Assembly (NCBI GenBank): GCA_910574255.1
Contig: CAJTAK010000013.1
Span: 1-64,000 of the forward strand
Source of the DNA: Clostridia bacterium
GTDB lineage: Bacteria > Bacillota > Clostridia > Lachnospirales > Lachnospiraceae
Direction of reading: 5' to 3'
DNA length: 64,000 bases
Shown here one piece after another: positions 29,144-45,651 of the stretch. The notes under the pieces are model-generated. The model saw only the letters and a list, made by a program, of their open reading frames with translations, was not told where the DNA came from and ran no database searches. Position 1 is the stretch's first letter, and every line of letters begins with the position of its first letter. The translations under genes were made by a program, and so were the position numbers.

Positions 29144-29320
29144 CTCCTTTTTAAGTTGCTACGCAATGGTACTAAAGGGTAAAGTTACTTCAGCGCACAC
29201 CTATGAGAGAAACTTTCATTCGAAAGTGCACTCATGAAAATTCCTCTCGTGCGCTTTCGCAACTTTACCGTCCGGCAGAAAGTATTTCTTTTAAACACTT
29301 GACGTTTCTTAGCCGGACTT
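29144..29320 (-). repeat. Structured leader element, full deoC copy (E3)
   Basis: Minus strand. A 5' hairpin is closed by GTCCGGC / GCCGGAC with inner arms AAGTGTTT / AAATACTT. Then comes a long hairpin: GGTAAAGTT / AACTTTACC, AGCGCAC / GTGCGCT, GAGAGGAATTTTC / GAAAGTTTCTCTC. The 3' end is CTTTAGTACC, then GCAACTTAAAAAGGAG. It begins right after the IIA stop codon and ends in the deoC ribosome-binding site. About 75-80% identical by eye to E4. Confidence 0.8.
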
Positions 29321-29323
29321 CTA

Positions 29324-29776
29324 TTATTTAACAAATTCCTCATAAAGCTCCTGGGAGGAATTCATATTCACACAGCTTTGAATCCTGCTGTCATCATTCA
29401 AAAGCTCCGCTAATTGGGCCAGCACATCCAGGTGGCTGTTGGAATCCTCGGCCGCCAAAGCAATAATCAGCCGAACCGTATCCTTCTTGTTGGGGAAGGA
29501 TATGGGATGGCGAAACAGCGTAAGGGCCAGCTGCTTCTTAATCACGCCGTCCTCCGGCCTGGAATGGGCAAGGGCCACATCCGGACACAATACATAGTAA
29601 GCACCATGCTTTTTTGTTGTGTCGATAATGGTCCTGGGATACTGCTCGGTAATATATCCCTGCTCCAGAAGGGTCTGCATGGAGATATAAATAGCTTTTT
29701 CCCAGTCACAGTCTTCCTCAATAATACGAACGTTTTCGAGCTTTAACATTTCAGTTATCATATCAATACGTCCCAT
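29324..29776 (-). CDS. PTS EIIA, mannitol/fructose/ascorbate type, 150 aa
   Basis: PTS_EIIA_2 fold; the phosphorylated His is His71 in DVALAHSRPEDGV. Takes phosphate from HPr and passes it to the IIB protein encoded just upstream. The start is uncertain: the ATG at 29776 directly abuts the IIB stop, while an ATG at 29761 gives MITEMLKLENV, a more usual beginning; neither has a strong ribosome-binding site. Followed by element E3 and deoC. Confidence 0.88.
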   Translation of the reverse strand: MGRIDMITEMLKLENVRIIEEDCDWEKAIYISMQTLLEQGYITEQYPRTIIDTTKKHGAYYVLCPDVALAHSRPEDGVIKKQLALTLFRHPISFPNKKDTVRLIIALAAEDSNSHLDVLAQLAELLNDDSRIQSCVNMNSSQELYEEFVK

Positions 29777-30058
29777 CTAGCTGTTTAAATAAGCCTTAAT
29801 TTTCGTTTCTACTTCTTCGTAATCCGTCAGATGCTCCAAGGGAATCGCATCCCCTGCACGAGAACACTCTTCATAGATATCCGCAGAGCAGACAAAGAGA
29901 TCCGCTGCGCCGGGAACCGCATCATAGGTTCCGGCATGATCTACCAGTACATCCTCCATGCCAAGGCTCTCCATTACCTTCTTTACATTCATAGCTACCA
30001 GGAAAGAGGAACCCATTCCGGTCATACAGCAGCATAAGATTCGATTGATTTCTTTCAT
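29777..30058 (-). CDS. PTS EIIB, ascorbate/lactose-like, 93 aa
   Basis: Small cytoplasmic IIB protein with the P-loop CCCMTGMGSSF; by alignment with UlaB-type proteins Cys11 is the phosphorylated residue. AAGGAG lies before the ATG at 30058 (MKEINRIL), preferred over an earlier start at 30085. Carries phosphate from IIA to the sugar bound by the IIC membrane protein. It sits between IIC and IIA in the same operon. Confidence 0.9.
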   Translation of the reverse strand: MKEINRILCCCMTGMGSSFLVAMNVKKVMESLGMEDVLVDHAGTYDAVPGAADLFVCSADIYEECSRAGDAIPLEHLTDYEEVETKIKAYLNS

Positions 30059-30098
30059 TATATAACTCCTTTCCGTCCGCAGCATGCGGACATTTCAT

Positions 30099-31490
30099 TT
30101 AAGCTTCCTCAGTAAAGCCAGGTTTGTTCTTAGTAAGTACACTGTAGATAATTGGCGCAAGGAATACCAGGACAGACGCAGCCAGGAATCCGGTACTTCC
30201 TATGGTGCCGCCGACCTGTGTATTAAACATACCAACTACCGTAGCGTCCGCACCGCCAAAGGTAGTTCCTTCTACATTTACACCGCCAAACTTAATAAGC
30301 AGGGCCGGGAACAGGGCAATGATAAATCCTGTAAGCAGAGAGCTGATGATTACACCTCTAAGGCCGCCTTCCTTATTGGCTACACAGCCTACGGTTGCAC
30401 CATAGAAGAACGCTGTGAACAGAGATGGAAGAATCAACGGAAGCTCCAGGGCTGTTCCGGCCAATGCCAACTGAAGGAAGAATGCCAGCACGCCGCCGAT
30501 AGCCGCACACAGAAAGCCGATCAATACGGAGTTGGGCTGGTAGGGATACAGAATCGGAATATCAAGAGCAGGAACCGCATTTTTGATAAACTTCTCCGCA
30601 ACACCTTTGAAAGCGGGAACAAGTTCCGCTACAATCATACGCACACCGGATTGGATAACATAGATAGATACCGCAAACTGTACACCATAAGTAATAGAGA
30701 AAATGATAAAATTGGTTCCTCCAAAAGTTGCCGCTGCCAGCTCCGGCTGCTGAACCATACAGAGAACGGAAATTAAAATGTAAACCAGTGTCATTGCCAG
30801 AGAAAGTGAAATAGTCAGGTCACGAAGCACATTCAGAGACTTGGACATATTAATCTTCTCTGCGTCTTTGTCTTTATTGCCGGTAACCTTCGCAATCAAT
30901 CCGCCAATCCAATAATATACAATTCCTGAGTGACCAACGGCCAGATCCTTTACACCTGTAACCTTACATACGGATTTGTAAATCAGGGCCGGGAACACCG
31001 CCATATAAGTTCCGGTAATCAGGCCGCCGCAGATAAGCACCTGCCAGATGGGGAATCCAAGAGCGCCCAAAGAAATGGCACATACGGTAGAAATCCACAT
31101 AATTTCATGACCTGTCAGATAGATAAACTTGAATTTGGAAAATCGGGCTAATACAAGGTTTACTACTAATGCGATTGCCATAATGCCGGACAGGGCCGTT
31201 CCGAACTGTGCAGAAGCCACGGCGAAGCAAGACTCATTTACAGGAAGGGTACCGGTAAATCCGAAGATTCCCTGCATCATGTCACTCATTGGAGTAACAG
31301 CACCGATAACAATGGTGGAACCGCAACTGATAAGTGTAAATCCTACAATTGTCTTAACAGTGCCGCGAAGCAGGTCATTCCATTTTTTCTTCTGAATAAG
31401 CAAACCAATGAGCACAATCAATGCAATCAGAATGGTGGGATTTGAAATAAACTGTACAATAAATCCCAAAATTGCCTCAATAACAAACAT
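30099..31490 (-). CDS. PTS EIIC, UlaA/SgaT family, 463 aa
   Basis: Polytopic sugar transporter with about eleven spans and the UlaA-family pattern (GFIVQFISNPTILIALIVLI at the start, TGHEIMWISTV, GGTNFIIFSITYGVQFAVSI). This family imports L-ascorbate in enterobacteria, but relatives handle other sugars or sugar acids, so the substrate is open. First gene of IIC-IIB-IIA. AAGGAGAGAAAG precedes the ATG. A regulator with PTS-responsive domains lies upstream on the same strand. Confidence 0.9.
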   Translation of the reverse strand: MFVIEAILGFIVQFISNPTILIALIVLIGLLIQKKKWNDLLRGTVKTIVGFTLISCGSTIVIGAVTPMSDMMQGIFGFTGTLPVNESCFAVASAQFGTALSGIMAIALVVNLVLARFSKFKFIYLTGHEIMWISTVCAISLGALGFPIWQVLICGGLITGTYMAVFPALIYKSVCKVTGVKDLAVGHSGIVYYWIGGLIAKVTGNKDKDAEKINMSKSLNVLRDLTISLSLAMTLVYILISVLCMVQQPELAAATFGGTNFIIFSITYGVQFAVSIYVIQSGVRMIVAELVPAFKGVAEKFIKNAVPALDIPILYPYQPNSVLIGFLCAAIGGVLAFFLQLALAGTALELPLILPSLFTAFFYGATVGCVANKEGGLRGVIISSLLTGFIIALFPALLIKFGGVNVEGTTFGGADATVVGMFNTQVGGTIGSTGFLAASVLVFLAPIIYSVLTKNKPGFTEEA

Positions 31491-31680
31491 AACTTTCTCT
31501 CCTTTTCTTTTGCTGCGATCAGCCTTAAGTAAAAATAATACGCAAAACTTATAAAGGCTGAGTAAAAACAGTTACCCTTTTGATCAACAAGCTTCTTGAT
31601 AAGGCAACTATACACAAAAAACAAAAAAAGAAAAAGCCCAACTTTATTCACAATTTACAGTGCAGAAAAATGTACCCAAC

Positions 31681-33717
31681 TTAGATATTCGTGAATTTGC
31701 TCAAAGCAAAAAGAACATCCTCCTCACACTCTGCCGTCAGAAGCTCCCTTTGCATAGAGGGATTTCCACTCAACTCCATAATATCCTGCAAAATATGTAA
31801 ATGATCCTGGTTGTTAGGCGTTGCCAAGACAAAAAGAAAATGAATGGACGACTTTCCCATAATATTCAGGCCTTCCTGAAAAATGGTAAGTGTCATTCCA
31901 AGGGCATCCACACCATTCTCCGCATGGGCATGAGCAATGGCCATCTCATCATTGATGACAAACCAAGGGCCATTATCATGAGCCATGGAGATCATGGCAT
32001 CAATATATTCTTCTCGGATGCATTCCTGCTCAAGAAGAGGAAGGGCCGCATCTCTTACCGCCCTTTCCCAATTTCCATAAGTATGCGATACAATCATAAC
32101 CCCGCATTTAGCAAGAATATCATGAAGCGTCATATATTTTTGCTCGGGAATTGTAACAAGGGCGCCGCCGGAATTCAAATAGCTGCTCAAATCCTGGCAT
32201 ATTATTTGATAGGTTTCCTCGTCCACATGACTGCGCACAATCTTTAGCAATGCCTTAACCTGTTGATTATCAGATTTTGAACTGATATTCAGCAGCATCA
32301 TCATAGATACAATGCTTGCCTTATCTTCCTGAGTCAAAATAGGATGGACAAGAATCAGAGGGAAAATACAATCAAAATGGACAGTGGAGATCACAAAATC
32401 AATCTGCTTAGCAGCAGTGTATTTGCTGATATCCTGAGGACGTACCATATCAACTACTTCAATGTTATCAAACTGCTGCTCAATTTCACTTTTCAACAGC
32501 AAAGAACTTGTAGTAATATTCGGACAGGTAATAAGTACCCTTGCCTTGGATGTCTCCTTTTTGACTTTATGCATATAAACACCAAAATGAATGGTCAAAT
32601 AAGAAATTTCATTTTCATCCAAAAGATAGGGCAGTTCTTCTTTTAAAACCTCACAGCTTACCTTTGTCATCCGATAGAGCTCCCCATAATCCTCTTGTAT
32701 TTCTTTGAAGAGAGGGTTATTGTTCGGCACCAGATAGCAATAATTAAAATAAGAAAGCTTCATATGAAGATAAAGGGATGCCGTCAATTCATCCCGGCGT
32801 TCAAAATCTACACAAGCAACCCGTTCAAAGGTCTTTACCAGCTTTTCCGCACAATCTTGAAGTTTGAGTTCTTCTTTGGGATTTTCATGCATGTAAAGCC
32901 GATTATTCCCATAACCCAACAGGCAAATGGCAAGGTATAACTTTTCATGCATTTTAATTTCCTGAAAAAAATGATCCACCAGTTGAAATTCCCGGGTTCC
33001 TCTTACATATTCAATATCTAAAAGCTGAATCTGATAAACTGCAGGTGTATTTTGTACCACCAAAATCAAATAAACCAGTTCAAGCATATTCTCTTCTTCC
33101 AAATTAAGATTCAATTCTTTTGTAATCTCTTTCAAAATATGCAGATAAGAATCCACAATCCCTGTTTCAAACAGATTTAACTCCGATGAACCAAGCAAAT
33201 CCAGAATCTCCGTAACATAAAGCAAAAAGACGGAGCGCTGACGGAACACATCGCCATTTACATGATACCCTTTCTTTTTTGTATTTACTAAAGAAAGCTG
33301 ATAACCGGATAAAATCTTTTTTGCTTCGGCCAGATCATAGAGAACGGCATTTCTGGACACACCGAACTCTGCAATCAGCGACTCAAGACGCACCTCTTTT
33401 TGAGAACAGATAGAAGCACAAATAATATAAGCAATGCGATGACTTTTTTCAAAGGAACGTCCGGCTGTTCTTAGATATTCTTTCAGTAATTGTTTCTGTT
33501 TTGGCGTAAGCAGATACATACCGTCTTCTTTGTCCGGAGAACCGGCTTTCAAAAGCTTCAAAAGATGCCGGATATGGTTTAAATCATAATATACGCTGCG
33601 CTTTGAAGTTCCGGACCCATGAATAATTTGTTCAATATTCGAAGAACTTGTTTCCTCCAAAAGAAATTTTAATACCTTCCGTGTGCTTTTTGTTAATGAT
33701 ACTTCAAATTGATTCAC
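31681..33717 (-). CDS. PRD-containing PTS-responsive transcription regulator, 678 aa
   Basis: BglG/MtlR-type activator. An N-terminal helix-turn-helix (TSSSNIEQIIHGSGTSKRSV) and a second HTH (SICSQKEVRLESLIAEF) are followed by two PRD modules in the middle. An EIIB-like domain (ARVLITCPNITTSSLLL) follows near residue 390, with Ser-Ser after CPN. A C-terminal EIIA-like domain has a His in EMAIAHAHAENGV. Phosphorylation by PTS proteins sets its activity. The start is GTG overlapping the rng stop (GTGA). It lies 190 bp upstream of the IIC gene and is the obvious regulator of that operon. Confidence 0.88.
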   Translation of the reverse strand: MNQFEVSLTKSTRKVLKFLLEETSSSNIEQIIHGSGTSKRSVYYDLNHIRHLLKLLKAGSPDKEDGMYLLTPKQKQLLKEYLRTAGRSFEKSHRIAYIICASICSQKEVRLESLIAEFGVSRNAVLYDLAEAKKILSGYQLSLVNTKKKGYHVNGDVFRQRSVFLLYVTEILDLLGSSELNLFETGIVDSYLHILKEITKELNLNLEEENMLELVYLILVVQNTPAVYQIQLLDIEYVRGTREFQLVDHFFQEIKMHEKLYLAICLLGYGNNRLYMHENPKEELKLQDCAEKLVKTFERVACVDFERRDELTASLYLHMKLSYFNYCYLVPNNNPLFKEIQEDYGELYRMTKVSCEVLKEELPYLLDENEISYLTIHFGVYMHKVKKETSKARVLITCPNITTSSLLLKSEIEQQFDNIEVVDMVRPQDISKYTAAKQIDFVISTVHFDCIFPLILVHPILTQEDKASIVSMMMLLNISSKSDNQQVKALLKIVRSHVDEETYQIICQDLSSYLNSGGALVTIPEQKYMTLHDILAKCGVMIVSHTYGNWERAVRDAALPLLEQECIREEYIDAMISMAHDNGPWFVINDEMAIAHAHAENGVDALGMTLTIFQEGLNIMGKSSIHFLFVLATPNNQDHLHILQDIMELSGNPSMQRELLTAECEEDVLFALSKFTNI

Positions 33718-34913
33718 TCTTCTACCTGCTCTTTCAGTGTCTTGCGTACCTTTTTACGGGTAAGCTCCACAAGTCCTAAAGGCGTCATATCAACCAAAAC
33801 GGTTTTTATGGGATCCTTTTTTATCTCATTGTCCAAAAACTCCATCAGCTTTTTGCGATCCTCATCTTCTTCCATATCAATAAAATCTACAACAATAATC
33901 CCTGACAGATTCCGTAACCGCAGCTGCCTTGCAATCTCTCCTGCCGCTTCCATATTAATTCGAAGAAAGGTATCTCGAATTTTTTTATGCCCATCATATT
34001 TCCCGGTATTTACATCAATTACAGTTAAAGCCTCTGTGGGCTGAATAACCAGATAAGCACCGGATTTCAGCCAAACCCGTTCCTGAAGGGCAGACTTAAA
34101 AGCTGTGGTGATTCCATATAAACGATTCAGAGAGGGACGCTCCTCCTGGTAAAAATGAAGCTTCTCCTGATCCTCCGGCTGATATTCCGAAAGATACAGG
34201 GAAAGGGTTTCATAAATCTTCCAATCATCCGTTACAATCTCCAGCAATTGTTCCTTATGAATATTACGAATTGCTGCGGCATAGGCGGGAGGTTCCTGAT
34301 AAACTTGTGAGAAACAGCTTTGATGCTTTCCCATGGTTAAAACTCTATGGCAGCTTTTGCTTAGACGCTCAAATTCTTCCTCAAGCACTTCTTTTGAAGC
34401 CCGGGCCGCATTGGTTCTCACGATGACACCGAATTCTCCGGTAAGAAAAGGCTCCGCAATCTTCCGAAGACGCTCCTTTTCCTCCAAAGAAAGCTTTGAG
34501 GAAAGACCAAGCTGCTTTTTTCCTGTGGTAAGCACCAGATACTTTCCCGGAAAATTGAGATTGCAGGTCACGGTAGGCGCTTTGGTTTTCACCGCTTCTC
34601 TGCTTACCTGCACCAGAAGCTCATCTCCGGGAGACAGCTTACTCCCTTTTTTCTCTTTAATATAGATAGGTTCTTCCTTTTCCCGAAGAGAATAATAGCA
34701 GAGAATACCGCCCTCAATCTCAATAAAAGCCGCTTCAATATTCTTCACAATATTTTTTACCTTGCCAATGTAGATACTCCCAAGAAGCTGTTCTTCATCC
34801 ATTCCAAAGCAGGATAATTCCGTTGCTTTTCCGTCTTCGTAAAAGGCAGAAAGAACCTTTCCCCTATCCTGTTCTTTCTGCCTCGTAATAATGAGTTTTC
34901 CGTTTTTTTCCAT
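33714..34913 (-). CDS. rng: Ribonuclease E/G family protein, 399 aa
   Basis: An N-terminal S1-like RNA-binding region (GSIYIGKVKNIVKNIEAAFI) is followed by the RNase E/G catalytic domain with metal-binding Asp residues in LTVIDVNTGKY and VVDFIDMEEDED. The length suits the short RNase G forms without the large C-terminal scaffold. In Firmicutes it normally sits directly before rplU; here the regulator, PTS and deoC genes separate them. It overlaps the regulator start by 4 bases. Confidence 0.92.
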   Translation of the reverse strand: MEKNGKLIITRQKEQDRGKVLSAFYEDGKATELSCFGMDEEQLLGSIYIGKVKNIVKNIEAAFIEIEGGILCYYSLREKEEPIYIKEKKGSKLSPGDELLVQVSREAVKTKAPTVTCNLNFPGKYLVLTTGKKQLGLSSKLSLEEKERLRKIAEPFLTGEFGVIVRTNAARASKEVLEEEFERLSKSCHRVLTMGKHQSCFSQVYQEPPAYAAAIRNIHKEQLLEIVTDDWKIYETLSLYLSEYQPEDQEKLHFYQEERPSLNRLYGITTAFKSALQERVWLKSGAYLVIQPTEALTVIDVNTGKYDGHKKIRDTFLRINMEAAGEIARQLRLRNLSGIIVVDFIDMEEDEDRKKLMEFLDNEIKKDPIKTVLVDMTPLGLVELTRKKVRKTLKEQVEE

Positions 34914-34958
34914 TACATTGCTCCATAGATGTCAAAATCTGAATCCAAACAATTCATG

Positions 34959-35666
34959 TTACTTCATATCTTCTCCCAGAGATTCCAAAGCTACCAACTG
35001 CCGTTTCTCTTCCGTCCCCATGTCCGCATAAACCTCCAGACGGTGTATCAGAAAAGCGAACTCCGGAAATTCCAGCCCGGCCCAGGAAGCAAAAGCCTCC
35101 ATCACAAGCTCCGGCTTCACATTCCGGGCACTTCCCGTTGCCACCTGCATGAAGATACAGTCCTCACGCCGTTCTATCCTATAGATCAGGGGACGGATAT
35201 CCACCTCCCGCTCACCCTTTTTCGTTTTTTTCACTACCGGCACTGTCTCTAAAGCGCAAAAGCCGTCAAATGTCTCCTGCCACCCCTCCTTTGGAGCGCA
35301 TCCCTCCCGGAAGCGAATCTCATAGTCTGCCGCCGCCGTAAGGGCCATGGCATTGGATGCCTTTCCATCGGGAATCTTCCGGAAGGAAACTACCTGGACC
35401 CCCTCTGTCATCACATCATTCAGCCGACGGATGGCCTCTTCGGAAGCTAAAGCCTGTCCAACCTCAATATCCAGATATTCCCCGTCGCTGGTAAGTCCCA
35501 CCCCCAGAGGCGAAGCAAAAGACATAATCATATGGGGGCTGAAGCCTTCGGAATAGCAGATATCGATTCCCGCCCTGCGGATAGCCTTCTGGAAATAGCG
35601 CATCATATCCAGATGGCCGATAAATTTCATTACCCCATACTTGCGGAATTTTACCCGGATTTTCAT
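34959..35666 (-). CDS. DUF2344/TIGR03936 radical SAM-linked protein, 235 aa
   Basis: MKIRVKFRKYGVMKFIGHLD and AGIDICYSEGFSPHMIMSFASP are hallmarks of DUF2344. The protein is normally encoded directly after, and sometimes fused to, the TIGR03960 radical SAM protein found upstream here. Role unknown, possibly an RNA-modification partner. The ATG at 35666 follows GAGGATAAAAGGG; longer in-frame starts lack this site. Confidence 0.9.
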   Translation of the reverse strand: MKIRVKFRKYGVMKFIGHLDMMRYFQKAIRRAGIDICYSEGFSPHMIMSFASPLGVGLTSDGEYLDIEVGQALASEEAIRRLNDVMTEGVQVVSFRKIPDGKASNAMALTAAADYEIRFREGCAPKEGWQETFDGFCALETVPVVKKTKKGEREVDIRPLIYRIERREDCIFMQVATGSARNVKPELVMEAFASWAGLEFPEFAFLIHRLEVYADMGTEEKRQLVALESLGEDMK

Positions 35667-35744
35667 AACCCTTTTATCCTCGTTTCTTTCTATACATTCT
35701 AACCCGAATAAGCCGGAAAATTTCATGTTCCCTAATTCAGAAGC

Positions 35745-37637
35745 TTACTCTTTTTCTGCCTTATCCTGACTCATGGTACCCTGTAAAAAACAGATTCCGC
35801 TTCCATAGCGTCCTGCACCACACCCCTGGCACTGCTGCTTACAATTAGGCGTAACCGTCTCATTCATTGCCCGTTCCCACTCCCCATACAGGAACTTCTT
35901 TGTAACACCGCTGTCAATAAAGTCCCAGGGGAAGATCTCATCCTGCTTCCGATTTCGTGTGGTATAGAACAGCAGATCCGTCTCTGTCTCCTCAAAGGCT
36001 TCCATCCACCGTTCATTGTGAAAACATTCCGTCCAGGAATCAAAGAGGCATCCCTTATCATAAGCTCGAAGGAGCAGCTTAGAAAGCCGTCTGTCTCCTC
36101 TTGCGAATACACCCTCCAGCACAGTCACATCCGCCTCATGCCAATTGTACTTAATACTCTTGCGGTTTAACTGAGCCTTAATTTCCATATTTACCCTGTG
36201 GGCTTTCTCAAGAAATTCTTCTCTTGTACACATTCTTGCCCACTGAAAAGGCGTAAAGGGCTTTGGCACAAAAAAGGAAGTGCTGACGGTAATCTGGCAT
36301 TTTCCGTTTCTCTGCTCCTTGGGAATCTCATAATAACGCTTCGCAATTCTTTCCGCCAGCCACGCAATACTTTTCTGATCTTCCTCTGTCTCCGTAGGAA
36401 GACCCAGCATAAAATAAAGCTTCACCTTATTCCAGCCGCCCTCAAAGGCAGCTCCCGCCCCCTCTAAAATCACTTCCTCGGTGAGCCCTTTGTTAATCAC
36501 ATCACGAAGGCGCTGGGAACCGGCCTCCGGCGCAAAGGTCAGGCTGCTTTTGCGGATATCCTGAACCTTGCTCATCACATCCAGGGAAAAGGCATCAATC
36601 CGCAGGGAGGGCAGAGAAATATTGACTCCCTGATTTCCAAAGGTCTCCAGCAAAAAAGTTACCAGCTCCGGGAGCTTTGAGTAATCGCTGGAACTTAGAG
36701 AGCTTAAGGAAATCTCCTCATGTCCGGTAGCTTTAAGCATCTTTTGGGCCGAAGTCTTCAGCATCTCAAGATCCCGCTCCCTTGTGGGACGATAGAGCAT
36801 TCCGGCCTGACAGAACCGGCAGCCCCGGATACAGCCCCTTTGTATCTCCAGAACTACCCGATCCTGCGTAACCTTAATAAAGGGAACTAAGGGCTTTTGA
36901 GGATAAAAAGTATTGGTCAAATCAGACACTGCCTGACGCTGCACCTTGGCCGGCACGCAAGGCTCCGTCGGCTCCATACAAGCAATAGTTCCGTCGGAAT
37001 GATACGTTACTTTATAAAGAGAAGGAACATAGATGCCGGGAATCTGAGCTGCTTTTTGAAGAAACTCCTGCCTGCTCTCCCCTGCCTTTTTATGTGCCTT
37101 ATAAGCATCAAGCAAGGCATAATAGGAGGTTTCTCCCTCTCCAATATAAAACAGATCAAAAAAATCAGCCAACGGTTCCGGATTACAGGCACAGGGACCG
37201 CCTCCGATAACGATTGGATCTGCTTCCCCACGCTTGTCCGCAAACAAAGGAATCCCACTCAAATCCAGAATCTGCAGTACATTGGTATAGCACATTTCGT
37301 ATTGAAGCGTAATGCCCAGAAAATCAAAGTCCCTGATGGGATCCTGAGATTCCAATGCAAAGAGCGGAATCTTTTTTTCACGCATAACTTGATCCAGATC
37401 CACCCAGGGAGAGTAGACACGCTCGCACCATACATCCTCCCTCTGGTTAAACATATCATAGAGAATCTGAATCCCCAGATGGGACATGCCAATCTCATAC
37501 ACATCCGGAAAGCACATGCAGAACCGGACATCAACCCTGGACTTATCTTTCTGCACTGCATTGATCTCATTGCCGATATACCGGGCCGGCTTTTCTATTT
37601 TTAATAATATGGTATCATCAAGAGCCAATTTCTTCAT
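35745..37637 (-). CDS. TIGR03960 B12-binding-domain radical SAM protein, 630 aa
   Basis: An N-terminal B12-binding-like fold (MSHLGIQILYDMFNQRED, GITLQYEMCYTNVLQILD) is followed by a radical SAM domain whose Fe-S cluster motif is CIRGCRFCQAG. A C-terminal region ends with a Cys cluster (CKQQCQGCGAGRYGSGIC). Same strand as, and 78 bases before, its usual DUF2344 partner. The substrate of the family is not known to me. Start MKKLALDDTILLKIE. Confidence 0.92.
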   Translation of the reverse strand: MKKLALDDTILLKIEKPARYIGNEINAVQKDKSRVDVRFCMCFPDVYEIGMSHLGIQILYDMFNQREDVWCERVYSPWVDLDQVMREKKIPLFALESQDPIRDFDFLGITLQYEMCYTNVLQILDLSGIPLFADKRGEADPIVIGGGPCACNPEPLADFFDLFYIGEGETSYYALLDAYKAHKKAGESRQEFLQKAAQIPGIYVPSLYKVTYHSDGTIACMEPTEPCVPAKVQRQAVSDLTNTFYPQKPLVPFIKVTQDRVVLEIQRGCIRGCRFCQAGMLYRPTRERDLEMLKTSAQKMLKATGHEEISLSSLSSSDYSKLPELVTFLLETFGNQGVNISLPSLRIDAFSLDVMSKVQDIRKSSLTFAPEAGSQRLRDVINKGLTEEVILEGAGAAFEGGWNKVKLYFMLGLPTETEEDQKSIAWLAERIAKRYYEIPKEQRNGKCQITVSTSFFVPKPFTPFQWARMCTREEFLEKAHRVNMEIKAQLNRKSIKYNWHEADVTVLEGVFARGDRRLSKLLLRAYDKGCLFDSWTECFHNERWMEAFEETETDLLFYTTRNRKQDEIFPWDFIDSGVTKKFLYGEWERAMNETVTPNCKQQCQGCGAGRYGSGICFLQGTMSQDKAEKE

Positions 37638-37664
37638 ACATATTCATCCTTCATCATTCCTTAG

Positions 37665-37708: not shown

Positions 37709-37763
37709 TTCCTTTCATTCAGTATAAAAGGCTTTTTCAAAAAAGTCAATGTAATTGAAGCAT

Positions 37764-39689
37764 CTAGGGCAATACCACCCGATCCGGAACCAGATTCGGA
37801 ATGCCCACATGCCAGAAAGCAAACAGGGACAAAAGACAGGTGCACACCAGTATCCCCTGAATCACCTTGTCCTTCTGAGGCTGCCTTGTCCGAGCCGTCA
37901 GATAAGAGATAAAAAACAGGATCGGAAGCAGATAACGTCCCTGTGGCTGAAAATCGATAAACCAGGAGTTAAAAACAATCAGTGCATACTGGAGGAAGCA
38001 GCAGAATGCGACAGCTCCATACTCCCACCATTTCTGCCGGTTCTTCATACGGATAAACTGCCATGTAATCCGCCCCAGGAAAGCCAGATACAAAAGTCCC
38101 ATAACAAGATAATACCAGCCTCTCTCCCCAAAAGCATAAGTCCCAAAAAAGCCTGCAAAAGTCCGAAAAAGGTTCTGGTGGAACTCATATTCCGTCAAAA
38201 GCTCTCCCAGGGTAATGCCCTTTCCAAAAAAGCTCATGGAATACGCCTGCTCTATAGGCGGCGTGGAGGGCTTGTAGCCATAATCTGCCCGAAGCTCCGT
38301 TACCTCAATCACAGCCCCAAGCTTATTAAAGCCATAATAAGGATAATCCGTGATCATATAACGCACTACGAAAATTCCCAAAGTCAGCCCTGCAAGAATC
38401 AAATATTTGCGCAGCAAAGCCCCTCTCTTCCGCTTTTCCTGGTGCAGCATCCCAATCAGCAAAATCAAAAACAGGAAAACCAAAATGGGATAAAAGGTTG
38501 CCTTAGCCCACAAAAGATGCACAAACAAAATACTCAAAAGCCCATAATAGAGAAGATGCCGTCTCCTGTAATTCTCCCGAAGAAGCCGGTTCAGCATACT
38601 ATTCTCCTCCAAAAGCTCGTAAAGGCTTAAAAACCCCACAAAAAAGTCCAATGCATCCGAAGTGGAATAACTGAAAATATACCATACCTGAGGGGTCAGA
38701 AGAAGCACCAGCAAAAGAGCGTAATGCTTCCGGATATTTTTCAGCGCAATCCCTGCCATGACAGAAAAAAGAATCAGACTGAACAGGCGCATCTGAACGG
38801 CCGGATCCTGAAAAAACTGCCCCAGCTTCCCTGCATAAAAATAAAATAAATTCCATTCAAAATGCCGGGACGTTCCGTATACCGGAAAACTGTCTGTAAT
38901 AATATCGCTGCGGATATCCGGCGGCATAAAATGAGTAAAATAATAAGTAACTGCCGCTTTCACATCATATTCATCTGGATTCAGCCAGAAAGGGCTTCGA
39001 AGCCCCGTATAAACGCACATAAAAACTGCGCCAAGCAGCCCTGCCGCAAACAGAAAGCTGGCCCGCCGCTCCAGAAGGGAAGCCGTCTGCTGCTCTCTGT
39101 ACAGCCAGCGGCACAGAAGGAACAAAAACACCCATATACCAAGGGAGCCGAAAAATCCCGCCAAAAATACGGGAAGCCGGAACTGTCGATACAAAGCACA
39201 GAAGCTATCCGAAGGAAGAAGCTGGGGATCCTCTCCCGTAACTTCAAAAGAAAAACCCGCATCTTCTGTAAACTGCACATGTTCATTCCCAGTAAAGCAG
39301 CTTTTAAGCTCTTCTCCCTCAAGAGCAATCGTCACAAAACCATTCTGCCGCACAGTCAGGCTCTCTATCACCAAAGGACTCACATCATATGCCCCGTCCA
39401 GCGGATCAATCCGCTTCAGGGAACAGTGGGAACCATACCGGATATCCCAAAAGGAAATCCGTGCCGTTCCGCTGTTAATCACCCTGCTTTTTGCATCCTC
39501 CGGCCGCACATGCTGCCTTGGTCCTGCATAAACAGTAGTAATATACTCCCCACTGGGATCTTCTGCAAAATTTATCGTTATAGTTGTGTAGACCGGCGTA
39601 ACTAACATGCACGCCAGCAGCCAGACAAACAGGGCGCAGCCCAAAAGCAATTTTACCCGCCTGCCCTGAATTAAGGGCATTTTTTTCAT
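37764..39689 (-). CDS. Large polytopic membrane protein, DUF2142/GT-C-like, 641 aa
   Basis: One N-terminal span is followed by an extracytoplasmic beta-rich region (residues about 45-170), then roughly eleven further spans. The motif RSPFWLNPDEYDVKAAV after the third span recalls the acidic first-loop signature (DE) of GT-C glycosyltransferases and DUF2142 proteins. Acts at the membrane, possibly in cell-surface glycan assembly. I chose MKKMPLIQGRR at 39689 since GGAGGG lies just before it, but 39701 is also possible. Followed by a terminator. Confidence 0.65.
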   Translation of the reverse strand: MKKMPLIQGRRVKLLLGCALFVWLLACMLVTPVYTTITINFAEDPSGEYITTVYAGPRQHVRPEDAKSRVINSGTARISFWDIRYGSHCSLKRIDPLDGAYDVSPLVIESLTVRQNGFVTIALEGEELKSCFTGNEHVQFTEDAGFSFEVTGEDPQLLPSDSFCALYRQFRLPVFLAGFFGSLGIWVFLFLLCRWLYREQQTASLLERRASFLFAAGLLGAVFMCVYTGLRSPFWLNPDEYDVKAAVTYYFTHFMPPDIRSDIITDSFPVYGTSRHFEWNLFYFYAGKLGQFFQDPAVQMRLFSLILFSVMAGIALKNIRKHYALLLVLLLTPQVWYIFSYSTSDALDFFVGFLSLYELLEENSMLNRLLRENYRRRHLLYYGLLSILFVHLLWAKATFYPILVFLFLILLIGMLHQEKRKRGALLRKYLILAGLTLGIFVVRYMITDYPYYGFNKLGAVIEVTELRADYGYKPSTPPIEQAYSMSFFGKGITLGELLTEYEFHQNLFRTFAGFFGTYAFGERGWYYLVMGLLYLAFLGRITWQFIRMKNRQKWWEYGAVAFCCFLQYALIVFNSWFIDFQPQGRYLLPILFFISYLTARTRQPQKDKVIQGILVCTCLLSLFAFWHVGIPNLVPDRVVLP

Positions 39690-39765
39690 AAATCCCTCCA
39701 TAATTACAAAAATCCCTTTCACAGATAGCAATTGCTGCTATTGTACCTGATTTCCCTTCCATCTG

Positions 39766-40101
39766 TCAACGGCTCACAAAAACAATCTGAACCAGGAACA
39801 TATAACACAGAGTTCCTGCGGCAATACTCAGCAGCACATTGCGCCGCCAGATATGCAGGAGAGCTGTCAAAAGGACAGCGAGAAATTCCGGCAGTCCATG
39901 ATCCGCAGAAAAAACATCTGCACCCTTCAGGCAATAAACTACCAGCGCAGCCATAATGGAAGGCGGAAGAATCCTTCCCAAATAGTGTACCTTCTCCGGC
40001 ACCTGACGCTTCCCGCCAAAAAGCACAAAAGGAATCAGACGGGTAATCAGCGTACAGACCGCCGCCACCAGAATAATTAAAAGCGCCTGTGTTCTCGTCA
40101 T
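39766..40101 (-). CDS. azlD: AzlD-like branched-chain amino acid exporter subunit, 111 aa
   Basis: Small four-span protein starting MTRTQALLIILVAAVCTLIT with RLIPFVLF and YLGRILPPSIMAALVVYCLK, the AzlD signature. Works with AzlC to export branched-chain amino acids or analogues. Overlaps azlC by 4 bases (ATGA). Confidence 0.92.
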   Translation of the reverse strand: MTRTQALLIILVAAVCTLITRLIPFVLFGGKRQVPEKVHYLGRILPPSIMAALVVYCLKGADVFSADHGLPEFLAVLLTALLHIWRRNVLLSIAAGTLCYMFLVQIVFVSR

Positions 40102-40787
40102 AGCGCTGCCTCCTTTTTTTCAATGGGCCTCTCTAATGCCATCAGAAGCGTGACAGTTAGAATCAAAGACGGCAAAATAAAATTACTTCCTCCAAAAATC
40201 AGCAGACATAAAATGGAGGAACCAAGTCCAATCAAAGCCGGGAGATGGGACTTCGACCCTCTCCATTGATCCACAAAAATCGTTACAAAAAGAGCCGTCA
40301 TGGCAAAATCAATCCCTGTCATATCAAAAGGCAGAATCTCACCCAGCGCAGCGCCCAGCACAGATCCTGTAACCCAATAGCACTGATCAAAAAAAGAAAT
40401 CAAAAAAAGCACTCTTTTTTCCTCCATTCCCTCAGGAACCTTTGTGGAACAAAGAAGTGAATAGGTTTCATCCGTCAGGGAAAACACCATATAAGGATAG
40501 GTTTTCATGCTCCGGAACTTTTCCACAAAGCTTAAGCCGTAAAAGGCATGGCGGCTGTTAATAAGCAGTGTCATAACTGCCGCTGTCAAAAGGCTTGTCC
40601 CTCCGGAAAGGAAGCTTACCAGCACAAACTGAATAGAGCCTGCATAAATAACCGTACTGGAAAGCAGCGCCCACCAGAAGCTGTAGCCGCTCTTTTGCAA
40701 AAGCAGGCCAAATGCAAGCCCCAAAAACAGATATCCCAGAAGCACCGGAATGGTTTTTATAAATGCATAGCGTATCTCTCGTCTCAT
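40098..40787 (-). CDS. azlC: AzlC-like branched-chain amino acid exporter subunit, 229 aa
   Basis: Six-to-seven-span protein with FIKTIPVLLGYLFLGLAFGL, SYSFWWALLSS-like second span and NSRHAFYGLSFVEKF, the conserved cytoplasmic motif of AzlC. Partner AzlD follows immediately. It is 6 bases after the small single-span protein gene, which may be co-transcribed. Confidence 0.92.
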   Translation of the reverse strand: MRREIRYAFIKTIPVLLGYLFLGLAFGLLLQKSGYSFWWALLSSTVIYAGSIQFVLVSFLSGGTSLLTAAVMTLLINSRHAFYGLSFVEKFRSMKTYPYMVFSLTDETYSLLCSTKVPEGMEEKRVLFLISFFDQCYWVTGSVLGAALGEILPFDMTGIDFAMTALFVTIFVDQWRGSKSHLPALIGLGSSILCLLIFGGSNFILPSLILTVTLLMALERPIEKKEAAL

Positions 40788-40793
40788 CTTCCG

Positions 40794-41120
40794 TCACTCT
40801 TTTTCGATATTTTCTCCTGTCAGGGGATCCGTTTCCTCCTCCGATACCCATATACTGTCCAATGCTCTGGCAAAGGTCTCCTCCAGATCAAGCTCCGCCG
40901 TCAGATCCCGCTGTACCTCCGCATAGATACGAGTACTGTCAACCTCATAGACAGAAGCCTTTGTATAATCCAAAATCACATAGCCCAGGAACAGACAAAG
41001 ACAAATATAGAAACGGATACGGAAAAAGCTTACCGGCTCTTCCGGTTCCGCCATTCTGTGTCCCTGCTGTGCAAGAAGCATCTGTCGGTACTGTCCCCCC
41101 GTTTTTTGTGCTTTCGCCAT
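40794..41120 (-). CDS. Single-span membrane protein, 108 aa
   Basis: A short basic cytoplasmic N-terminus (MAKAQKTGGQYRQMLLAQQG) leads to one membrane span (FYICLCLFLGYVILDY) and an acidic extracytoplasmic tail (LDLEETFARALDS, ending EEETDPLTGENIEKE). AGAGGGA precedes the ATG at 41120. Family not recognised. Lies between the DUF6056-like and azlC genes with short gaps. Confidence 0.6.
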   Translation of the reverse strand: MAKAQKTGGQYRQMLLAQQGHRMAEPEEPVSFFRIRFYICLCLFLGYVILDYTKASVYEVDSTRIYAEVQRDLTAELDLEETFARALDSIWVSEEETDPLTGENIEKE

Positions 41121-41143
41121 AAAAATCCCTCTCAAAAGGAAGC

Positions 41144-42451
41144 TTACTTGATCTTATGAAAGCCTTGCCAAAAATATGAATAGGCTGTCTTCCTCCATTC
41201 AAGGGCACAGAACATGGCCAGAAACAGAAAGCCGAAATTCAGAAATATGCTTGTCCGCTCTGTAGAAACCCACACCGTAGGGGACATTCCCACACTCACC
41301 TTGGAAAGAGTAACGCTCACCAGGAGCACCAGCATATCCAAAAACTTTTCCGTCGCTCCCCACAGGAGGAACAGGGCATAAACCACACAAAAGCAGCAGA
41401 TTGTATAGATAAACAGCAATAACCGGGCCTTATTCGGCAGATATCCCTGATACCAGACAACAGGCTGGTCAAACTCAAAAATATTTACAATATAATGAAC
41501 CAAATCAATCCCGCAGTAAGGCTCAATTCCCTTCAGCACCAAGAGCCCCGCATTGGAGGCAAAGGGAAGCCCTGCTATCAGATACTCCCAGATTCTTCTC
41601 CTTTTGGCTGCGACCGCCAGGAACAGAACCCCTGTAAACAGGAAATATGTCCAGTTGATATCCTTATACAGGGTCAGCAAAAGGCTGTACCAGCCCAAAA
41701 GCCCTCTCTGAATAAGATTAAAATCGGCATACCCCGGAAACCACACATCAATACTGGTGTCCTTACGGATCCCATTTCCCGGACAAGTCAGAATAATATA
41801 CAAATATAATAGCGAAACTCCAAGGAGAAAGCATACATACCAGTTACAGCTTCGCTTTCGGATCCATTCACAAAGAAGCATATAAAGGGACAGGCACAGC
41901 ACTATAAGGCAGATCTGCTCATGATTAACGGAAAAGATTGCTGCAGGTATGGCAGCAGCATAGGCCCGCTTCCTTCCCCTCTTTGTAATTCCGGGAGCCA
42001 TGGGAAGGAACACAAGGAGCAGCGCAGCCAAAGACCACCAATAATTGATGGTGGTAGTCATCCATCCGGCAGAGGACATTTCCCGAAAATCATAGGAAAG
42101 GAGAAGAAAAAGCAACAGAACCGCAAGGGGAGTCTCTATCTCCTCCTTTTTCTCAAAAACAAACCGGACGGCCAAAGCTCCAATCAGAACGGATATCAGA
42201 ATATCCAAAACCATCCACAGAACTGCGGGCTGCTGCACAACCAAAATCAGCAGCGCCTCAATCACAATCCGGGATGACCAGTCGTTCCACCGCTCCCACA
42301 AAATTCCCCAAAAGGTGGTATCATTCAGGCACGCCATATAATAGGGATCGTCCCCGTCTCCAAGCTGAAGGAAAAACACATGGAACACAATCACGATAAT
42401 GCCGTAAATCAAAAGCAGGCACCCTGTTCTTTTATCCTTTAAACGCTCCAT
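41144..42451 (-). CDS. DUF6056-like polytopic membrane protein, 435 aa
   Basis: About eleven spans. The first extracytoplasmic loop contains QLGDGDDPYYMACLNDTTFW and later RWNDWSSRIVIEALL, a pattern I associate with DUF6056 proteins, thought to be envelope glycan-related membrane enzymes. AAAGGAT precedes the ATG at 42451. It follows hisIE by 22 bases, so the histidine operon transcript may continue into it. Function unknown. Confidence 0.65.
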   Translation of the reverse strand: MERLKDKRTGCLLLIYGIIVIVFHVFFLQLGDGDDPYYMACLNDTTFWGILWERWNDWSSRIVIEALLILVVQQPAVLWMVLDILISVLIGALAVRFVFEKKEEIETPLAVLLLFLLLSYDFREMSSAGWMTTTINYWWSLAALLLVFLPMAPGITKRGRKRAYAAAIPAAIFSVNHEQICLIVLCLSLYMLLCEWIRKRSCNWYVCFLLGVSLLYLYIILTCPGNGIRKDTSIDVWFPGYADFNLIQRGLLGWYSLLLTLYKDINWTYFLFTGVLFLAVAAKRRRIWEYLIAGLPFASNAGLLVLKGIEPYCGIDLVHYIVNIFEFDQPVVWYQGYLPNKARLLLFIYTICCFCVVYALFLLWGATEKFLDMLVLLVSVTLSKVSVGMSPTVWVSTERTSIFLNFGFLFLAMFCALEWRKTAYSYFWQGFHKIK

Positions 42452-42473
42452 TTTGCATCCTTTCCGCAGCTTC

Positions 42474-43562
42474 CTACCGATTAGCAAGCTCTCTTGTAAT
42501 ATCCTCCCAGGTCACGCCGCGCTCCACCATAAGCACCATGGCATGGTATAGAAGATCCGACATCTCGTACTTAATCTCTTCAGGATTGGGATTCTTGGCC
42601 GCAATAATAAGCTCCGCCGATTCCTCTCCAATCTTTTTCAGAATCTTGTCAATTCCCTTGTCAAAGAGATAATTGGTATAAGATCCTTCTTTGGGATGAA
42701 CCTTTCGATCCCCAATCACCTGATACACATTCTCAAAAACCTTTAAAGGATTGGTGTTCTGATACTCAGTTTTGGCAATCTCATGAAAGAAGCAGGAGTG
42801 ATTGCCCGTATGGCAGGCCGCCCCCGTCTGAGACACCTTCGCCAAAATGGTATCACAGTCACAGTCCACCCGAAGCTCCTTCACATACTGGAAATGGCCG
42901 CTGGTCTCACCCTTCAGCCAGAGAGCCTGACGGCTGCGGCTGAAATATGTCATTTTCCCGGTCTCAATGGTCTTATGGAAAGCCTCCTCATTCATATAAG
43001 CCACCATAAGAACCTCATCTGTCCGGTAATCCTGAACCACAACCGGAACCAGACCATCCGGGCCCAGCTTAAATTCCGGCCATTCCATATTGCAGCTTAA
43101 GGGGCGAAGCTGTTCCTTAAAGGGCTTTAGCTCATCCATGGAAATCAGCTCACTTACATACTCTTCTGCCAGTGCTGCAGGCGCACTGACCACATCAGAG
43201 CTGTCCACAGAGGCCGCAATCTTCTCTTTTCCGAAACGTTTGGATACTTCCTTCGTCAGATCAATGTTGCCCTGCTTGGCATAGTTCAAAATCACCTTGG
43301 CACAGCCTGCATAGAGAAGCTTTTTCACATCCTCCGCTCTCTCAATATGGCCGCCGGCCTTCACCGGAACCTCCGATACCCGGCAGATTTCCTTAATCAT
43401 TCCAACAGCAGCCTCATGTTCTTCTTCTGTACGGGAGCAGTCAAAAACAAGAATCTCATCTGCTCCATTGTCACTGTAATGTCTTGCCAGAATAACCGGA
43501 TTCTGTTCCTCTTTTTCTGACTCCCGATTCAGGCGGATCACCCCGCGATTCTTTTCCATCAT
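42474..43562 (-). CDS. hisI: HisIE with HisA/HisF-like N-terminal piece, 362 aa
   Basis: The C-terminal two thirds is bifunctional: a HisI cyclohydrolase ([20 protein letters not shown], metal ligands in DCDCDTIL and [10 protein letters not shown]) then a HisE pyrophosphohydrolase ([36 protein letters not shown]). They carry out steps 2 and 3 of histidine synthesis. The first 135 residues ([40 protein letters not shown]) resemble half of a HisA/HisF barrel. Longer versions of this N-terminal domain occur in Lachnospiraceae; here it looks shortened. AAAGGAAG precedes the ATG at 43562, one base after hisB. Confidence 0.9.
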
Positions 43563-43563
43563 T

Positions 43564-44151
43564 CTACAAACTTCCTTTCGTTGATAAAACATCTGCAATT
43601 CTGGGATCTAATGCAACGGCCATATCTAACGCCTTTGCAAAAGCCTTAAACATTCCCTCAATCATATGGTGGCTGTTCTCTCCTGCAAGCATTTTAAAAT
43701 GAACATTCATGCCTGCACTGTAGGAAATGGCATAAAAGAACTCACGCACCATCTGAGTATCCATATCTCCCACCCGTTCTGTGGGAAATACCGCATCCGA
43801 CCCATAGCAGGGCCTTCCGGAAAGATCCAGCGAACAGAGCACTAAAGCTTCATCCATGGGAAGAATGCAGCTTCCAAAACGCACCATCCCCTTCTTGTCT
43901 CCCACGGCCTCCCGAATGGCCTGCCCCAGCACAATTCCCGTATCTTCAATGGTGTGGTGGCAGTCCACCTCCAGATCCCCCTTCACCTGACAGGCAAGAT
44001 CAAAAAGCCCATGGCGGGCAAAGCCGTTCAGCATATGGTCAAAAAAGCCTACGCCTGTAGAAATATCCGCCCTCCCCGTACCGTCAAGATTAAGGGACAG
44101 GGTTATCTGAGTCTCCTTTGTATTTCTTGCAAGTTCTGCTGTCCGATTCAT
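43564..44151 (-). CDS. hisB: Imidazoleglycerol-phosphate dehydratase HisB, 195 aa
   Basis: Monofunctional HisB with the two manganese-binding repeats: [20 protein letters not shown] plus CHHTIEDTG in the first half, and [17 protein letters not shown] plus [15 protein letters not shown] in the second. Normal length. 6 bases after hisD and one before hisIE. Confidence 0.97.
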
Positions 44152-44157
44152 GGCCCC

Positions 44158-45459
44158 TCACTCCTTTCCCTGTTCAAAGCGCACAGCGATGGAATTGGCA
44201 TGAGCTGTCAGTCCCTCTGCCCCGGCAAAACGGATGATATCCTCATGAACAGCCTCCAAAGCCTCTTTGGAATAGTATATAAGACTTGATTTCTTCATAA
44301 AATCGTCTACCCCAAGGGGGGAGAAGAACTTCGCCGTTCCATTGGTCGGCAGTACATGATTTGGCCCTGCAAAATAATCCCCCAGAGGCTCGCTTGCATA
44401 CTCACCAATGAAAATTGCTCCTGCATTGCGGATCCTGGTCATAACCTGGAAGGGATCCTTCGTCACAATCTCCAGATGCTCGGAGGCAATGGCATTGGCT
44501 GTATCAATGGCCTCATCCATGGTATCCGCCACCAGTATCCATCCATAGTTTTCCAGAGATTTCACCAAAATATCCCTTCGGGAAAGTTCTGTAAGAAAGC
44601 CGTCCACTTCCCTGGACACCTGCTCTGCCAGCTCTCTGCTTGTAGTTACCAGAATCGCAGAAGCCATCTCATCATGCTCTGCCTGAGACAGAAGGTCCGC
44701 CGCCACATACCGGGGATTGGCCGTCTCGTCCGCCAGCACCAGAATCTCACTGGGTCCGGCGATGGAATCAATACTCACAAAGCCGTAGACTGCTTTTTTT
44801 GCCAAAGCCACATAGATATTCCCCGGGCCTACAATCTTATCCACCTTGGGAACGCTTTCTGTTCCATAGGCCAGAGCGCCGATGGCCTGTGCTCCGCCCA
44901 CCTTGTAAATCTCATCCGCTCCGGCCTCATGAGCAGCCACCAGCGTATTGACGTTGATCTTTCCATCCCTGCCCGGCGGCGTGGTCATAATAATCCGCTC
45001 CACTCCGGCCGCCTTTGCCGGAACAATATTCATCAGCACCGAAGAAGGATACACTGCCTTTCCTCCGGGCACGTACACACCAACCATTGCCAGAGGAGTT
45101 ATCTTCTGACCCAGAAGCGTACCGTCCGGCTGGCTGTCAAACCAGCTGTTCCGCTTCTGCTTCTCGTGAAAGCTTTTGATGTTCACAAGGGCTTTTCGGA
45201 TTACCTTAAGAAGCTCTGGCTCAACCTTCTGGTATGCTTCCTCTATCTCCTCCCGGGTGACACGGATGGTATCCTCTGTAATCCTTACTCCGTCAAAACG
45301 CTCGGTATAAGAAAAAAGAGCTTCGTCCCCCTTTTCCTTTACCTCATCCAAAATAGCGTTTACCTGCTCCCCATAAGCTCCATAGTGATTGGGGCTTCGT
45401 TTTAACAATTCATCCAGCAGGTTTTTCCGGCTGGATGCGTTAAGTGCTGTAATTCTCAT
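44158..45459 (-). CDS. hisD: Histidinol dehydrogenase HisD, 433 aa
   Basis: Full-length HisD with GVYVPGGKAVYPSSVLMN, KIVGPGNIYVALAKK, the zinc-site region DSIAGPSEILVLADE, SQAEHDEMASAIL, and NHVLPTNGTAKFFSPLGVDD. Catalyses the last two oxidations to histidine. ATAGGAGGAAATAG precedes the ATG. Separated from the acyltransferase gene upstream by structured leader element E4, which runs up to this ribosome-binding site. Confidence 0.97.
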   Translation of the reverse strand: MRITALNASSRKNLLDELLKRSPNHYGAYGEQVNAILDEVKEKGDEALFSYTERFDGVRITEDTIRVTREEIEEAYQKVEPELLKVIRKALVNIKSFHEKQKRNSWFDSQPDGTLLGQKITPLAMVGVYVPGGKAVYPSSVLMNIVPAKAAGVERIIMTTPPGRDGKINVNTLVAAHEAGADEIYKVGGAQAIGALAYGTESVPKVDKIVGPGNIYVALAKKAVYGFVSIDSIAGPSEILVLADETANPRYVAADLLSQAEHDEMASAILVTTSRELAEQVSREVDGFLTELSRRDILVKSLENYGWILVADTMDEAIDTANAIASEHLEIVTKDPFQVMTRIRNAGAIFIGEYASEPLGDYFAGPNHVLPTNGTAKFFSPLGVDDFMKKSSLIYYSKEALEAVHEDIIRFAGAEGLTAHANSIAVRFEQGKE

Positions 45460-45465
45460 CTATTT

Positions 45466-45651
45466 CCTCCTATCTTAAGTTATAGTTGCTGAGCAGCGGT
45501 ACTAAAGGGTAAAATCACTTCGGCACACCTGTAATGAGAGGAACTTTCATTCGAAAAGGCACTCATGGAAAGTTCCTCTCGTGTGCCTTTGCGACTTTAC
45601 CGTCCAGCAGAAAATATTTCTAATAAACACTTGACATTTCTTAGCTGGACT
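45466..45651 (-). repeat. Structured leader element, full hisD copy (E4)
   Basis: Minus strand. The 5' hairpin GTCCAGC / GCTGGAC replaces the GTCCGGC / GCCGGAC of E3, a paired change. The long hairpin is GGTAAAGTC / GATTTTACC, GGCACAC / GTGTGCC (E3: AGCGCAC / GTGCGCT, again paired changes) and GAGAGGAACTTTC / GAAAGTTCCTCTC, the last a perfect 13-bp match. It then reads CTTTAGTACCGCTGCTCAGC and ends in the hisD ribosome-binding site. Begins eight bases after the acyltransferase stop. Confidence 0.8.

Follow-up and report, generated by a model that had tools for sequence, protein, structure and literature searches.

Short hairpin elements docked at native Shine-Dalgarno sequences in Lachnospiraceae and their possible movement by IS110-type recombinases

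Introduction

Insertion sequences (ISs) of the IS110 and IS1111 groups are guided by RNA, either a bridge RNA or a seekRNA, as described in passages of PMC11208160 and PMC11187229. The same passages give CT as the core dinucleotide of IS621 (PMC11208160) and report that a recombinase and its guide RNA can move a mini-IS in trans (PMC11187229). Here we describe two families of much shorter hairpin elements, mod1 and mod2, that sit at the Shine-Dalgarno (SD) sequence of unrelated genes and may well be moved in a comparable way. Five mod1 copies lie in a 64,000-nucleotide (nt) stretch from a gut Clostridia bacterium of the Lachnospiraceae (assembly GCA_910574255.1, contig CAJTAK010000013.1, positions 1 to 64,000 of the forward strand), which we call the window. 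The genome of the window is coded G000, its relatives G001 and so on, and locus records carry L-numbers.

The closest precedent for such a target is IS900, an IS110-family element of Mycobacterium avium subsp. paratuberculosis, whose target motif is given as CATGNNNNNNTCTCCTT in a passage of PMC8141618 and which disrupts only three genes. Read on the complementary strand, this target would become AAGGAGA-N6-CATG, which by our own reading resembles the arrangement of an SD sequence and a start codon. Older work on IS900 is said to have already described its target as an SD sequence plus start codon. SD targeting within the IS110 family thus has a precedent.

Results

The elements end at the Shine-Dalgarno sequence

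Read in the gene-sense direction, mod1 is about 170 nt long and begins after a flanking AG with hairpin 1 (AG^TCC(A/G)GC; the caret marks the border). A central long hairpin follows, with a closing stem GGTAAAGT/ACTTTACC and a bulge of 7-8 nt on its 3' side. The 3' part consists of CCTTTAGTACC, a mini-hairpin GTTGC/GCAAC (alternatively ATCAC/GTGAT) and a tail such as AACTTAAGATAG or AACTTAAAAAG, after which come the GAGG of the SD sequence and the start codon. mod1 has no open reading frame (ORF) and no terminal inverted repeats. In all 41 full copies counted AG stands before the left end, and in a 42nd, L096, AA does; this count is partly built in, as the model itself begins with AG, and the AG at the right border is also part of the SD sequence.

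Using a profile hidden Markov model (HMM) built from 36 copies, we catalogued 91 distinct mod1 copies or fragments in G000. The catalogue was drawn from the flanks of BLAST matches and from the pattern matches listed at no more than 2 mismatches, and the search behind it was directed at pieces with a 3' end. By BLAST, the deoC copy of the window has at least 43 matches in G000 (40 of 99 candidates scored), and a pattern for the 3' part occurs at 110 sites with up to 3 mismatches versus 56 for a reversed control.

We asked what follows each element, with a strict test that required an SD core within 14 nt, a start codon and an ORF of at least 50 codons. Downstream of the 87 mod1 pieces with a 3' end we found mod2 in 10 cases, another mod1 in 6 and an assembly gap in 1. 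Of the 70 that are last in line, 62 passed the test; two more carry about 8 nt of extra tail repeat and one has a weaker SD sequence, for a total of 65/70. In the opposite direction none of the 87 passed, so the consistent orientation relative to genes that had been noted in the window, where copies facing both ways were named as the refuting outcome, extends to the whole catalogue. Random positions at the same loci, taken on both strands, passed in 5158 of 200000 cases. A specific target used in one orientation is the pattern to look for in a non-autonomous IS110/IS1111-type element, and mod1 displays it.

The second family, mod2, is about 105 nt long. After its CAG border come two stems, the first up to 19 bp long and the second 9 bp, and then a 3' bulge of 7-8 nt; the inner stem has an A-G mismatch, and the element closes with CGGAACTTAAAATAG^GAGG. 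mod2 is found before or after mod1 and also in near-identical tandem copies. At L159, a mod2 copy behind a mod1 fragment at 1500 has a hairpin inserted in its 3' bulge, which suggests an additional small palindromic element.

With one genome taken per genus, a mod2 covariance model finds mod2 in two of 120 genomes of the family Lachnospiraceae, G000 and, in another genus, G044, with 34 matches among 34 scored candidates in G000 and 28 matches in G044. We fetched 15 loci from G044, of which two are inner tandem copies. Behind all 13 that are last in line there is a purine run and then, 13-22 nt past the end of the model, an ATG, with ORFs of at least 163 codons; the purine run contains GGAG or GAGG at 12 of these sites and is GGGGGG at the other. 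Identity averages 0.89 in mod1 and 0.67 in mod2, the mod2 set having been thinned beforehand to below 93% identity.

BLAST detected mod1 in 7 of 41 genomes, all seven in the genus of the window, and did not find it in nine other genomes of that genus or in 25 of other genera. A long exact 3' pattern was found in records of gut Lachnospiraceae and other Clostridia, mostly metagenome-assembled genomes (MAGs), plus 1XD8-76. Viral contigs gave no exact match to one mod1 3' pattern.

Five mod1 sites in the window

The window contains the following elements.

16132-16250, plus strand: mod1 without its 5' hairpin, in the lexA leader (nhmmer, model positions 50-169, 114 bits)
24262-24300, minus strand: internally deleted mod1 before rsfS (start codon from 24251)
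29152-29319, minus strand: full mod1, subfamily A, before deoC (nhmmer, 1-169, 184 bits)
29174-29270, minus strand: central long hairpin of the deoC copy (mod2 covariance model R1, 29.9 bits, E 7e-6)
45483-45651, minus strand: full mod1, subfamily B, before hisD (nhmmer, 1-168, 186 bits)
45504-45602, minus strand: central long hairpin of the hisD copy (mod2 covariance model R1, 31.7 bits, E 2e-6)
49707-49757, minus strand: 3' fragment of mod1 upstream of a putative zincin peptidase gene (nhmmer, 120-170, 31 bits)

All five element sites proposed by the sequence-only reading are real, and the downstream genes were identified with Pfam as lexA, rsfS, deoC, hisD and a putative zincin peptidase gene (product DUF3267). 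That reading counted three near full-length copies; those at deoC and hisD are indeed full, and the lexA copy has lost its 5' hairpin. The two copies described as shortened are so: at rsfS a 5' AGTCCAGCT is fused to the 3' mini-hairpin by an internal deletion, and the copy at the zincin gene is a 3' fragment. The rsfS copy was detected by BLAST (24260-24292) and by eye and was not reported by the profile HMM.

The five copies share one orientation relative to the downstream gene and lie next to an SD sequence, as had been proposed. At lexA, the element sits between a LexA-box-like promoter and the SD sequence (16253-16259; ATG at 16269). The deoC copy has the borders AG^TCCGGC on the left and ..TTAAAAAG^GAG on the right, the latter in the SD sequence, with the ATG from 29132. 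At hisD (gene from 45459), a partial tail repeat of about 8 nt separates element and SD sequence. Before the zincin gene the SD sequence is AAGGAG (49700-49705), with the ATG from 49689.

The central hairpin of the hisD copy is laid out as in mod2, with a stem, a 3' bulge of 7-8 nt and a second stem. We do not claim shared ancestry of mod1 and mod2 from the covariance-model matches, since antisense mod2 also reaches 34.9 bits. On the plus strand at 29290-29330 and 45630-45660, antisense to the elements, hairpin 1 has by eye a TTGACG or TTGACA that points away from the element at its 5' end and that could, in some flanking contexts, form an outward promoter; at the deoC copy a TATTAT lies 17 nt on.

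Relatives without the element keep the SD sequence

We compared syntenic regions across 15 genomes of the genus, with 230 nt shown per lexA or deoC site. At lexA, 14 of 14 relatives are without the element in the 230 nt shown and keep a similar LexA-box-like promoter and SD sequence. At rsfS, mod1 is present in 0 of 15 relatives; G006 carries mod2 there (L061, 4063-4158), and G002 has, by eye, a mod2-like tail. Six relatives were shown at deoC: G013 has a full mod1 at the SD sequence, G005 has only the 3' mini-hairpin, and G001, G004, G011 and G015 have no recognisable element in the 230 nt shown.

The joined flanks of nine more G000 loci were searched in four relatives, and five loci gave comparisons. 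At L018 (G000:C13:66138-66318), the alignment of G006 and G013 with the joined flanks is unbroken where the element is inserted in G000, and a 1-nt gap falls between the SD sequence and the ATG; G012 carries a mod2-like tail at this site. As judged by eye, this SD sequence lies within the last part of the upstream gene, and the element's TCCAGCTAA substitutes a stop for that gene's last codons. At L152, a single SD sequence is occupied by mod1 in G000, a mod1 remnant in G012 and mod2 in G002 and G006, and is empty in G013. L157 has mod1 in G000 and mod2 in G002, and L160 has mod2-like tails in G012 and G013 and none in G006. L017 shows no recognisable element in the relatives, but its spacer has diverged.

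Relatives without an element keep an SD sequence at the same place, indicating that the SD sequence is native and is the target; different elements at one SD sequence are expected if it is the target site. Presence and absence between species, tandem copies and several elements per site show that the elements move. We regard it as very nearly certain that mod1 and mod2 are mobile and docked at SD sequences. Of the two possibilities first raised from the window, this bears out the mobile palindrome and speaks against a translation-control cassette shared by a regulon: the genes are unrelated, and mod1 is missing from most of the orthologous sites in relatives (lexA 0/14, rsfS 0/15). The suggestion that the element brings a usable ribosome-binding site fails on the same comparison, as element-free relatives have the SD sequence at the same place.

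Stems are maintained by paired changes

The compensatory stem changes named from the window are present in the sequences. For mod2, 94.2% of cells are paired across 35 pairs, and 22 of the 35 pairs have changed on both sides; this structure was drawn by hand from the same sequences, which favours it. Covariation was controlled with shuffles and slid alignments: none of 500 shuffles reached the observed values for mod2, and sliding by 1-3 columns cut pairing to 35-44%. G044 mod2 has double changes in 25 of 35 pairs (0/500 shuffles), in an alignment fitted to the model. In mod1, double changes occur in 9 of 41 pairs (27 of the 42 full copies). These controls address in part the covariation above phylogenetic background that the sequence-only reading had asked for. 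The covarying stems support the earlier proposal of selection on structure.

Correction of palindromes during replication can also produce apparent covariation. We compared G-U with A-C cells; A-C here equals G-T on the other strand, so that strandless decay would give equal numbers of the two. On the gene-sense strand, G-U to A-C was 50:14 for mod1 and 29:7 for mod2, counted in columns with a Watson-Crick majority, with the structures predicted for the two strands pooled. G044 mod2 gave 28:5 in 17 of 24 rows, leaving out duplicates, one partial row and one antisense row, with the structure fitted on the gene-sense strand. The excess is weaker when only pairs predicted on both strands are used (mod1 28:12, mod2 7:3), and subfamily A alone, in its other-strand structure, has A-C 33 versus G-U 16, which weakens the strand-bias argument. 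The surplus of G-U relative to A-C on one strand argues that palindrome correction is not the sole cause. Together the counts support, without proving, a constraint that is likely to act at the RNA level.

Predicted accessibility of the SD sequence is 0.47 with the element and 0.47 without it (36 copies). We accordingly rejected the idea that the element masks the SD sequence.

IS110-family elements also end at SD sequences

The mod1 borders lack terminal inverted repeats and each carries AG, or CT when read on the complementary strand, and for this reason we examined IS110 genes. An AG core at both borders and absent terminal inverted repeats are features of IS110/IS1111-type elements. Comparison of copies revealed two IS110 types, A and B, that end at SD sequences; both carry the DEDD_Tnp_IS110 and Transposase_20 domains.

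We searched 12 genomes with the right ends of types A and B and counted junctions in the loci returned. Of 27 distinct right junctions, 23 lead into an SD sequence and an ORF of at least 57 codons, some ORFs being open at contig ends (type A 4/4, type B 19/23). At the remaining four type B sites GGAGG is present but no ORF follows, which suggests that the target is the DNA motif itself. Left junctions read ..AAG^CATTCC for type A (three) and NAGGAG^C in 21 of 23 for type B. Type A inserts at AG^GAGG, the position used by mod1 and mod2, and type B, present in G000, G002, G013 and G044, enters 3 nt further on. The right end of type A, TTGAGATAG^GAGG, matches that of mod1 subfamily B, TTAAGATAG^GAGG, in 8 of 9 letters.

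Types and elements also meet at individual sites. At one gene's SD sequence, G002 carries type B and G000 carries mod1 (L301, L327, L156; flanks 99% identical), and three type B copies lie, by eye, behind a mod1 or mod2 remnant (L331, L334, L335). The non-coding region downstream of the type A gene has a hairpin head with AAGGAGG and CCTCC, as expected of a guide that matches both strands; that of type B has GGAGG and AAGGAG without CCTCC. By our own assembly, type B ends joined with an AG core would give TTGACT-17 nt-TATAAT, like published junction promoters. PF01548 scored above cut-off in six of the seven mod1-bearing genomes, G012 being the other. Further IS110 loci viewed for SD junctions (L105-L108, L110-L112, L121) had no clear junction.

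Many contigs of G000, G002 and G013 end within IS110 type B copies. Numbers of IS110 elements and of their neighbouring genes are probably undercounted in these assemblies.

Other repeats in the window

A 49-nt direct repeat, 100% identical, stands on either side of a gene for a 587-aa DDE_Tnp_1 protein (13486-15545), and 15396-15503 is 99% identical to two G013 contig ends; together this looks like a recent insertion sequence common to both species. Two head-to-tail repeats of 52 nt, 96% identical, lie at 48416-48519, upstream of the gene at 46750-48402.

Discussion

We propose that mod1 and mod2 are non-autonomous mobile elements, and we infer that an IS110-type RNA-guided recombinase moves them; we give this explanation a probability of roughly 0.6. 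The elements (about 170 and 105 nt) would enter a native SD sequence between its AG and its GAGG, in one orientation, and leave both the SD sequence and the start codon intact. In the leader RNA they are predicted to fold on themselves, with the SD sequence as available as before. Movement would occur in trans, through a DEDD recombinase of IS110 type whose guide RNA (bridge RNA or seekRNA) is programmed for the SD sequence. We infer a near-neutral effect on expression, and a site before the SD sequence probably lets the elements spread without breaking the downstream gene.

Several observations weigh against the recombinase step or the SD rule. The left ends of mod1, mod2 and IS110 differ, the likeness being confined to the right end. 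Type A was found only in G013, and the window genome itself yielded only type B. Neither type was found in the element-bearing G004, G005, G006, G007 and G012 (four of nine positive), an absence that is weak evidence since MAG assemblies break at such repeats. IS110 genes score above cut-off in the mod1-negative G001, G011 and G015 and so do not track the elements, and no autonomous element with a transposase gene between mod1 or mod2 ends was found. Five last-in-line mod1 copies (L148, L151, L170, L022, L047) fall outside the SD rule.

Other explanations account for parts of these data. Covarying stems, the sense-strand excess of G-U over A-C and the placement of the lexA copy between promoter and SD sequence are what a cis-regulatory RNA leader would show, one that controls translation of a gene set and was spread by duplication; we consider this quite improbable, because the genes are unrelated, mod1 is absent at most orthologues in relatives, the elements form tandem arrays, two families occupy one site and the predicted SD accessibility is unchanged. 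It is more improbable still that the element carries its own SD sequence and provides translation start signals: the tail GATAGGAGG is common to many subfamily B copies, but element-free relatives have the SD sequence and the bases past GAGG vary between copies. High copy number, hairpins and absent terminal inverted repeats would also suit repetitive extragenic palindromes (REPs) whose mover is an IS200/RAYT-type Y1 (HUH) transposase. This too we judge improbable. Y1 genes were not found in the element-bearing G004, G006 and G007, and those viewed resemble, in our judgement, ordinary IS200 genes. Among 40 Y1 and IS110 loci fetched, none had an adjoining mod1 (one match, E 1.2) and one had a weak mod2 match (E 0.067). 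The elements also have no GTAG/CGTC tag as defined in passages of PMC3733652.

Another unlikely explanation is that the elements are themselves mobile guide RNAs, hairpins like seekRNAs or bridge RNAs that travel alone and are transcribed with host mRNA. Their lengths, about 105 and 170 nt, compare with 70-100 and 145-170 nt for seekRNAs in passages of PMC11187229, and the long hairpin with internal loops and the sense-strand G-U excess would fit. However, no consistent segments of mod1 or mod2 match both SD strands, as judged by eye and without a systematic test, and many mod2 stems are A/T-rich. It is similarly doubtful that mod1 and mod2 are stripped IS110-type elements consisting mainly of a hairpin RNA that the recombinase recognises. 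If the elements were guide RNAs, sense docking would lead to their transcription in host mRNA, and at least 100 leaders would form a dispersed reservoir of guide RNA for an SD-homing recombinase.

Under our preferred explanation, movement by an IS110-type recombinase, the elements illustrate how a repeat can spread in a dense bacterial genome: by homing to a motif before genes, in one direction, keeping the motif intact and folding away. Covarying leader hairpins, which are normally taken for riboregulators, would thereby be linked to RNA-guided IS110 recombination, and they serve as a caution that covarying structures in 5' untranslated regions can be mobile. Should the IS110 link prove right, the elements are natural, very small cargoes placed precisely at SD sequences, useful for engineering and for asking how leader insertions alter expression.

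Comparison with known systems

As anticipated from the window, no Rfam family accounts for the elements: no release 15 family matched the window at its gathering score, and searches by E-value with five mod2 loci and a 301-base stretch at the deoC copy turned up chance-level matches only. In the open literature, most subscription papers and all preprints being outside the scope, we came across no account of covarying hairpin elements that dock at SD sequences. Correia, ERIC, BOX and RUP repeats occur at varied distances and in both orientations. Nearly every mod1 or mod2 copy, unlike these, abuts an SD sequence in one orientation; shared features are short length, high copy number, palindromic structure and possible presence in transcripts, as given in passages of PMC10969869 and PMC3049150. 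REPs with their RAYT are likewise palindromic, extragenic and of high copy number, but passages of PMC3733652 describe them as 20-40 bp long and GTAG/CGTC-tagged, which mod1 and mod2 match neither in length nor in tag, and no RAYT-like partner was found among the Y1 loci viewed.

The IS110 group is the nearest. IS900 shares an SD-like target with mod1 and mod2 and differs in being an autonomous IS of 1,451 bp; the passages on IS900 mention no hairpin elements of 100-175 nt. IS621, ISEc11 and ISEc21 are also autonomous, whereas mod1 and mod2 have no ORF and carry a covarying hairpin. With these three IS110/IS1111 elements, as described in passages of PMC11208160 and PMC11187229, mod1 and mod2 share a specific target used in a specific orientation and, with IS621, a CT core.

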